From contig NC_015703.1 in the NCBI RefSeq assembly GCF_000218895.1, positions 2,431,001-2,495,000 on the forward strand: DNA of 64,000 bases, read 5' to 3'. Position 1 is the stretch's first letter. Each line of letters opens with the position of its first letter. A program made the position numbers and the translations under genes. Positions 21,348 through 52,999 of this stretch are shown in pieces. The notes beneath the pieces are model-generated. The model did no database searches, had not been told where the DNA came from, and saw only the letters and a list, made by a program, of their open reading frames with translations. This DNA is from Runella slithyformis DSM 19594. Its GTDB lineage: Bacteria; Bacteroidota; Bacteroidia; Cytophagales; Spirosomataceae.

Positions 21348-21380
21348 AGACATGGAAAGTGTTTAACACTTTCCATGTCT
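21348..21380. terminator. 33-bp perfect palindrome acting as bidirectional terminator
   Basis: AGAC, ten bases, TTTAA loop, the ten bases inverted, GTCT: a 14-bp perfect stem followed by ATATTTTT. It lies between the glycogen synthase stop and the convergent MBL hydrolase, whose stop codon overlaps its end. The layout is identical to the element inside the glycosyltransferase at 52407-52439. Confidence 0.85.
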
Positions 21381-50893: not shown

Positions 50894-51020
50894 GGTTGTC
50901 TTCTCCTGCCATTCTTAACAATCCCCTTTGGTCATTGGCAGAAGGGGATTGTTTTTTGCGGTAACGAACCTGCATTTTACGGCAACTTCTCCGTACTTTT
51001 GCCTAAAACCGTATCCTTCC

Positions 51021-51866
51021 GTGACCCTGCGTAAACGAGTCTATAATACCCTGGAATTCTCAGCCGTTGGCCGGCGTGGGATGAGTTTATATATCAATAT
51101 CGCGTTGGTGTCGATCATTTTTATCAACTCGGTGGCGATCATTCTGCACACGGTTCCTGAGATTCGGCATTACCGATTGTATGAATCTATTTTTACCGAT
51201 TTTGAGATTTTTTCGGTCATCATTTTTACCATTGAATATTGCCTGCGTATATGGTCGTGTGTCGAAAACCCTCGCTATAAAAATGGTTGGCGCGGGCGTT
51301 TGCGGTACATCTTTTCGTTTTGGGCCATTGTCGATTTTCTCGGTATTTTTCCGTTTTACTTCACGTTGCTTACGTCCGATTTCGGCATAATTCGGATTTT
51401 GCGGGTTTTTCGACTATTCCGGTTGTTTCGGGTTACGCGCTATTCACACGCCCTCAAGATGATCCGTAACGTGCTTTTGGAAACCAAAGAAGAACTGCTC
51501 ATCTGTTTTTCATTTATTATCTTTACCCTGTTGATCTCGTCGAGTGTGATGTATTATCTGGAGCATAACGTTCAGCCTGAACGATTCAGGAGCATTCCGG
51601 CTACGCTGTGGTGGGGAGTGATTACGATGACCACCACAGGCTACGGTGACATGTATCCCGTCACGGCCGCCGGAAAGTTTTTTGGGGGAATTGTCCTGAT
51701 TTTGGGCATAGCGTTGTTTGCCCTGCCTACGGGTATCATTGCTTCCGGATTCATGGAACAAATTCGCCGGGACAAAGGGCGTAAGTATATCCAATGTCCT
51801 CACTGTAACGAATGGGTTGATTTGCAGGAAGTTCATCATGTTCATAAACCCACGGAAAAACACTGA
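51021..51866 (+). CDS. Voltage-gated-like potassium channel
   Basis: About 281 residues from GTG 51021 (the frame is open to 50928). Six transmembrane helices: S1 near IALVSIIFINSVAIIL, S4 with regular Arg (RILRVFRLFRLFRVTRYS, about 122-139), S5-S6 around the pore. The selectivity filter is TTTGYGDMYP (about 205-214), clearly K+-selective. The cytoplasmic tail ends with QCPHCNEW and HHVH, a possible half zinc site. Its stop overlaps the next glycosyltransferase start by one base (TGATG). Confidence 0.92.
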   Translation: MTLRKRVYNTLEFSAVGRRGMSLYINIALVSIIFINSVAIILHTVPEIRHYRLYESIFTDFEIFSVIIFTIEYCLRIWSCVENPRYKNGWRGRLRYIFSFWAIVDFLGIFPFYFTLLTSDFGIIRILRVFRLFRLFRVTRYSHALKMIRNVLLETKEELLICFSFIIFTLLISSSVMYYLEHNVQPERFRSIPATLWWGVITMTTTGYGDMYPVTAAGKFFGGIVLILGIALFALPTGIIASGFMEQIRRDKGRKYIQCPHCNEWVDLQEVHHVHKPTEKH

Positions 51867-52999
51867 TGCGCATTGGATTTGACGCCAAACGGGCTTTTAA
51901 CAACCGAACAGGATTGGGTAACTACAGTCGGTTTGTACTGAATGCGCTGCACAACTATGCTCCCGGACATACGTATTTGGCCTATACGCCCAAAATCAAA
52001 ACGGGGCTTTTTGACGAGTTTCCCGAAGAGTCCATTCGAATGCCAAATTCGACCAATCCATTGTTTGGTGCCTGGTGGCGGAGTTACGGCATCAAAAAAG
52101 CGCTGTCGCAGGACAGCATTCAGGTTTTTCATGGATTGAGCAATGAGCTTCCGAATGGACTCCATAAGGCGGGAATTAAATCCGTGGTGACCATTCATGA
52201 CTTGATCTTTTTGCGTTATCCCGAGTTGTACCCTGCGATTGACCGTTTTTTTTATCGTCAAAAATTTAGAAATGCCTGTGCCGAAGCCGACGTCATCGTG
52301 GCGGTAAGCGAGCAGACCAAACGGGATATTGTGGCGTTTTACGGCACTTCGCCTGAAAAGATACAGGTAGTATATCAGGATTGTCATGAGGCGTTTCATG
52401 CGCCTCAGACTTCCCAAGTCTTTAAGACTTGGGAAGTCTCACCTCTCCTCCGGAAATACAACATCGACACACCCTATGTGTTGAGTGTAGGCACCATTGA
52501 GGCGCGTAAAAATCAGCTTCATTTGGTCAAAGCCTTTCACGCGGCGCAATTGGAAGACGCTGAACTGGTGCTGGTGGGCGGAAAAACGAGTTATCAGCGT
52601 GAGATAGAAATCTATATTGCGCAACATCAGTTGGCCGCTAAAGTCAAGATTTTAAACAGCGTTCCGTTTGCCGATCTTCCGTCGCTGTACCGATCGGCCC
52701 GGGTATTTGCGTACCCCTCTTTTTTTGAAGGATTCGGCATTCCTATCGTGGAAGCACTGCACAGCGGCGTGCCGGTGGTGGCTGCTACGGGGTCATGTTT
52801 GGAAGAAGCCGGCGGCAAAGGCGGGGTGTATGTGGACCCTGGCGACGTACATGCGTTTGCCCAAACGCTGACCGGGCTTTGGCACGACGAAACCCTGCGA
52901 AAGACGTTGATACAGGATGGCCAAAAACATATACACCAATTTGCCGCCGCGAAAATCGCAAAAGAGTTGATGGAAATCTACGCATCTTTGCAGTCGTAA
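51866..52999 (+). CDS. Glycosyltransferase, GT4 family, with an in-frame palindromic insert
   Basis: A 377-residue GT-B glycosyltransferase. N-terminal domain: RIGFDAKRAFNNRTGLGNYS with the donor/acceptor Gly loop, and VVTIHDLIFLRYPELYPAID. C-terminal nucleotide-sugar domain: YVLSVGTIEARKNQLHLVKA (about 205-225), LYRSARVFAYPSFFEGFGIP and IVEALHSGVPVVAATGSCLE (about 271-312) with the ExxxxxxxE motif. Between the two domains the residues QTSQVFKTWEVS are encoded by a 33-bp perfect palindrome (52407-52439) seen also at 21348-21380. The insert is 11 codons, keeps the frame and lies in a loop, so the protein is probably still functional. The sugar product is unknown. Confidence 0.9.
   Translation: MRIGFDAKRAFNNRTGLGNYSRFVLNALHNYAPGHTYLAYTPKIKTGLFDEFPEESIRMPNSTNPLFGAWWRSYGIKKALSQDSIQVFHGLSNELPNGLHKAGIKSVVTIHDLIFLRYPELYPAIDRFFYRQKFRNACAEADVIVAVSEQTKRDIVAFYGTSPEKIQVVYQDCHEAFHAPQTSQVFKTWEVSPLLRKYNIDTPYVLSVGTIEARKNQLHLVKAFHAAQLEDAELVLVGGKTSYQREIEIYIAQHQLAAKVKILNSVPFADLPSLYRSARVFAYPSFFEGFGIPIVEALHSGVPVVAATGSCLEEAGGKGGVYVDPGDVHAFAQTLTGLWHDETLRKTLIQDGQKHIHQFAAAKIAKELMEIYASLQS
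52407..52439. repeat. 33-bp palindromic repeat inside a coding sequence
   Basis: AGAC, TTCCCAAGTC, TTTAA, GACTTGGGAA, GTCT. Same length, same ends and same TTTAA centre as the terminator at 21348-21380, with a different inner stem. In the glycosyltransferase frame it adds 11 codons. Confidence 0.85.

Follow-up and report, generated by a model that had tools for sequence, protein, structure and literature searches.

A Runella-wide, REP-like 33-bp repeat that normally lies past the 3' ends of genes probably entered the interdomain linker of a glycosyltransferase gene in frame, and was subsequently reshaped there, as a palindrome, most likely by template switching. The copy concerned lies at 52407-52439 of the window, the 64,000-nucleotide stretch of DNA analyzed here. 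The gene, its parts and a second copy of the repeat are as follows.

51866-52999, + strand: GT4-type glycosyltransferase gene, 377 aa (ORF and Pfam matches)
51962-52375, + strand: Glyco_transf_4 (PF13439), N-terminal GT-B domain, residues 33-170 (Pfam match)
52376-52465, + strand: interdomain linker, residues 171-200, housing the palindrome (Pfam bounds and AlphaFold2 model)
52407-52439, no strand assigned: perfect 33-bp palindrome, in-frame member of the dispersed AGAC...GTCT family
52466-52927, + strand: Glycos_transf_1 (PF00534), C-terminal GT-B domain, residues 201-354 (Pfam match)
21348-21380, no strand assigned: second family copy, between convergent 3' ends, with a T-rich tail on the + strand

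As the earlier note had described, the element at 52407-52439 is a perfect inverted repeat, with 16-nt arms and a 1-nt spacer, and it is placed in frame within the 377-aa ORF: its first base falls on codon position 2, and it encodes residues 181-192 of the glycosyltransferase (QTSQVFKTWEVS). As a single strand it folds into a hairpin of -24.7 kcal/mol (z -6.4). The genome is rich in hairpins (in 864 kb, 79 have a stem of at least 13 with no more than one mismatch), which could favor a chance palindrome in coding sequence. Codon shuffling, however, produced no perfect stem longer than 14 in 60 replicates and stems of 14 at a mean of 0.017 per replicate, and the 52407-52439 palindrome is alone in having a perfect stem longer than 13 among the 531 ORFs surveyed (656 kb, comprising the window and 40 segments of 20 kb from the same genome). 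The codon-shuffle result and its membership in a dispersed family rule out a chance origin, the probability of which we consider negligible. The pattern AGAC-N25-GTCT is by itself weak evidence, with two matches in the window and at least two also in 4 of 100 window shuffles. An exact 31-mer of the copy had no match in the collection of other species' genomes. Eight further perfect stems of 11-13 bp, on L069, L078, L083, L089, L101 and L103, lie inside ORFs of the same set of 531, where codon shuffles predict about 1.4 of at least 11 bp; these are possibly older in-frame palindromes.

Pattern searches of the genome uncovered a dispersed family, with 16 places in this genome at no more than two mismatches and none for the reversed-pattern control. 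At the same stringency, copies were identified in 12 of 13 Runella genomes, for a total of 149 places, and the reversed control returned 0 everywhere. When a stricter pattern was applied to 121 genomes of the taxonomic family, all 10 sampled Runella genomes were positive, with 4-26 copies each; outside Runella, 5 of 111 genomes were positive, G131 with nine copies and the other four with one each. No report of this palindrome family in Runella was found in searches of open PMC full-text papers. The second copy in the window, at 21348-21380, belongs to the same family and does share with 52407-52439 the length, the AGAC/GTCT ends and the TTTAA centre that had suggested a kinship between the two; it folds at -22.7 kcal/mol and lies 14 nt past the upstream ORF, with a 2-nt overlap with the end of the other, convergent ORF. 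The TTTAA centre itself is not a family feature, as the loop varies between copies.

Of the 107 copies whose genomic context was read, 96 come from Runella. Among these, 48 are tandem, 40 convergent and 1 divergent, 2 lie at contig edges and 5 are flagged as intragenic. Directly past gene 3' ends lie 88 of these 96, and the distance to the gene end is at most 25 nt in 95 of 128 cases. The same placement is observed for long hairpins of other sequence in this genome (the 79 in 864 kb comprise 31 convergent and 30 tandem cases, 3 divergent ones, 13 within ORFs and 2 at edges). Mobility of the family is putative. Comparison of two intergenic copies of G003 (L177 and L182) with six Runella genomes, using unaligned match tables, yielded no clean empty site or target-site duplication. 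At L182:1404-1496, a sequence of about 90 nt that adjoins the element recurs many times over in G001, G003 and G010. This genome also carries another intergenic palindrome family, ACGTCGGCAGGGTT...AACCCTGCCGACGT, of 31-33 nt (L074:2166-2198, L108:13866-13896 and L108:17108-17138).

In the AlphaFold2 model of the glycosyltransferase (mean pLDDT 89.3), residues 182-185 form the sole stretch below 50, so that the palindrome-coded segment is predicted to fall in a poorly ordered linker; the Pfam matches at residues 33-170 and 201-354 agree with its proposed location in a loop between the two GT-B domains. The start of the gene overlaps the stop of an upstream ion-channel-like ORF, 50928-51866 (overlap region 51856-51870), suggesting translational coupling of the two. 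The closest relatives found by search are Runella, and the glycosyltransferase tree is (G006,(G000,(G012,(G002,(G009,G011))))), where G000 is this genome and G012 is R. aurantiaca YX9. The earlier note had reasoned that an extra segment present only here would speak for insertion. Instead, the linker of G009, G011 and G012 holds a 60-nt version that has the same arms together with an internal 14-nt tandem, and the linker of G002 a shrunken 21-nt remnant; judged by these sequences, the palindrome is not private to this species. The linker of the more distant species G004 (L027, C281) carries an unrelated, very stable hairpin of about 70 nt (MFE -65.5, z -10.5), G006 has a long loop (z -1.1), and no strong hairpin was found at the linker in G001, G003, G005, G007, G008 or G010.

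The segment had been described as an insert of 11 residues, which stands insofar as it is an in-frame segment but not as a clean gain of eleven. The linker loop measures 18 residues here, versus 10-15 in hairpin-free Runella, and since the element accounts for 33 bp of it, its removal would leave 7. The element is thus not a simple addition; with a remaining linker shorter than any hairpin-free one, either the element took the place of part of the old linker or the palindrome grew on site. The latter would mean that no insertion took place, an old linker having been made palindromic in situ by template switching, with its likeness to the family a product of convergence or partial conversion. 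Besides the residue count, this account draws on a class III aminotransferase loop, where sister species have unlike palindromes, as though these had been remade in situ, and the sequence ACCTTGGCAGGGTT... is almost private to the locus (3 of 5 places in 13 genomes). The glycosyltransferase palindrome, however, matches the family in its two ends, its length and its AAGT/ACTT blocks, none of which would be expected of growth in place, and we consider an origin without insertion rather unlikely. Insertion is the best reading, and one that we infer from this family likeness.

The stems and loops of the family bear on how an inserted copy may have been reshaped. Over 94 copies, of which 69 are distinct, pairing holds in 98.1% of the cells of the 14 stem pairs, compared with 14-57% in slid controls, and two-sided changes are seen in 10 of the 14 pairs (128 such cells versus 33.8 in shuffles); these figures are biased toward conserved stems, the copies having been found by patterns that fix up to 20 of 33 positions and leave only pairs 7/27, 8/26, 9/25 and 14/20 free in the main pattern. 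The free columns 7-9 nevertheless pair with 25-27 in nearly all copies, using several pair types. At 27 orthologous sites represented in at least two species, 46 pairs of copies were compared, in which 20 stem-pair changes are two-sided and 17 one-sided; the loops are identical in 12 pairs, exactly inverted in 12 and otherwise different in 22, whereas about 10.5% of unrelated copy pairs have the same loop and about 10.5% an inverted one. Inversion is seen at 9 of the 27 sites, and with one pair taken per site the excess is modest (approximately 7.5 of 27 inversions versus 2.8 expected, P about 0.02). In the pair L194/L201, loop inversion is the sole difference and the flanks are 98% identical. 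Homogenization of arms together with inversion of the spacer is the signature that two studies describe for template switching between the arms of an inverted repeat (PMC8604942, PMC8794818). Pairing could be explained by RNA selection alone, but inversions could not; they could arise otherwise, by AT-rich loops interconverting through point changes. As a pattern, the stems and loops of the family display the signature of template switching, the mechanism that we propose behind it.

The hairpin in the glycosyltransferase gene had also been suggested to cause premature termination of transcription. This finds no backing, as neither strand of the copy carries a T-rich tail (tails CACCTCTCCTCC and GAGGCGCATGAA) and the copy is missing from the terminator-scan output; lacking such a tail, it is unlikely to end transcription. 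Like intrinsic terminators, the family consists of stable hairpins close past stop codons, with tails moderately enriched in T (0.38-0.51 at positions 2-8 versus a background of 0.28). Unlike them, only 41 of 95 family tails have at least four T in eight. Selection could alternatively maintain the hairpin in the mRNA, through attenuation, pausing, stability or folding of the nascent protein, as its folding energy would allow and as the aminotransferase loop, which forms a hairpin (z <=-2.8) in 11 of 13 Runella species (absent in G005 and G008) despite unlike sequences, might indicate. At the glycosyltransferase linker, however, a strong hairpin (z <=-3) is present in only 4 of 13 Runella genomes (this one, G004, G011 and G012) and is weak or gone in the remainder, the close sisters G009 and G002 included, and in none of the 10 orthologs examined outside Runella is it strong (lowest z -2.3). 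With the T-rich tail absent as well, we regard maintenance of this hairpin by selection in the mRNA as decidedly improbable.

Three copies of the family are truly in frame: the one described here and two in G012, in a TPR protein and in the class III aminotransferase. The three are read in three different frames, implying that it is the DNA that recurs and not the peptide. Two other copies flagged as intragenic were dropped, that of L012 because it precedes a likely signal-peptide start and that of L182 because its ORF, of 73 aa, is likely spurious. At the TPR loop, strong hairpins were found in G012 and G002 and also, with another sequence, in G006; that of G010 is moderate (z -3.1), and those of G000, G009 and G011 are decayed. 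The aminotransferase hairpins comprise at least four unlike sequence types: 33 nt AAACTTGG..., 33 nt ACCTTGGCAGGG..., 34 nt AGACCTRTAAGG... and long CCCCACCCC... forms. Little is shared between the peptides that the different types encode. The copy in this genome (G000:C4:3596407-3597690; L230, with orthologs on L226-L238) is a long double hairpin of the CCCCACCCC type. The ACCTTGGCAGGG palindrome is mostly not dispersed, with 5 places in 13 genomes, and the CCTRTAAGGTTT type is dispersed, in 4 of 13 genomes with 4-9 copies. Small DNA hairpins seem to reshape protein loops in Runella, given that the same loops hold palindromes of another size, or altogether unlike ones, in related species. More tentatively, certain Runella loops might be standing homes for hairpins, each replaced or rewritten as a unit by template switching, with the frame kept, so that the loops would evolve by palindrome mechanics and the hairpin perhaps be selected; this is possible, though we hold it to be doubtful.

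For the glycosyltransferase, the most coherent sequence of events would begin with one copy landing in frame in the linker before the split of this species and the four sisters in which its arms are shared. Such an insertion would have been tolerated because it measures 33 bp, can be read through in two of the three forward frames and falls in a loop. The element has since been reshaped as a palindrome, into 33 bp here, 60 bp in three sisters and 21 bp in one, the likely engine being switching of template by DNA polymerase between the arms, which leaves the arms identical and the loop turned round. The coding copy is then most likely a passenger that alters a protein loop and carries no termination function.

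REP-like palindromes at gene ends and protein segments encoded by palindromes, which are usually studied apart, are joined here in one genus. Runella is free-living and has many sequenced species, making orthologous sites comparable. If the inversions and paired stem changes are truly due to template switching, the genus would constitute a natural record of the process in bacteria, and would show protein loops changing by several residues at once, with no selection acting on the peptide.

The palindromic elements of Rickettsia (RPE) lie in frame within genes for unrelated proteins, at sites that tolerate them. By analogy, the in-frame copies in the glycosyltransferase, the TPR protein and the aminotransferase may be likened to them, as palindromes inside otherwise conserved proteins. 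The resemblance to Rickettsia suggested at the outset is thus a fair analogy but would not extend beyond one: compared with RPE by description, the Runella element belongs to a host of a different phylum, measures 33 bp and is mainly intergenic.

REPs, as described in PMC3733652, are small palindromes past the 3' ends of convergent or unidirectional genes, with few in ORFs, and are defined by a GTAG/CGTC tag; different REPs occupy about the same recB site in two Xanthomonas species. The Runella family resembles them as a 20-40 bp palindrome in many copies next to convergent or unidirectional gene 3' ends and rarely within ORFs. This size, placement and rarity in genes, and the presence of Y1_Tnp genes in 13 of 13 Runella genomes, would fit a genuine REP mobilized by a RAYT (Y1) transposase. 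The Runella family, however, has no unpaired GTAG/CGTC tag, its AGAC/GTCT ends pairing with each other, and in its outward flanks no base exceeds 0.51 at any of 12 positions. Its perfect stem spans 14-16 bp, versus 8-9 bp in the CGTC families (PMC3733652), and it is concentrated in one genus. An AGAC...GTCT palindrome was found within about 1.5 kb of 0 of 8 Y1_Tnp loci, a small sample with one locus partly masked, and so gave no link to a transposase; G010 and G011 have one weak Y1 match each yet six and eight copies, and G004, with four Y1 matches, has none. Movement by a RAYT transposase is accordingly an unlikely account of the family.

The cases of template switching reported for yeast coding DNA (PMC8604942) and RNA hairpin genes (PMC8794818) are like those described here in that arms are homogenized, the spacer is exactly inverted and several adjacent residues change at once. 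Those cases concern single old repeats, whereas the Runella palindromes form a dispersed, genus-wide family located mostly at gene ends.
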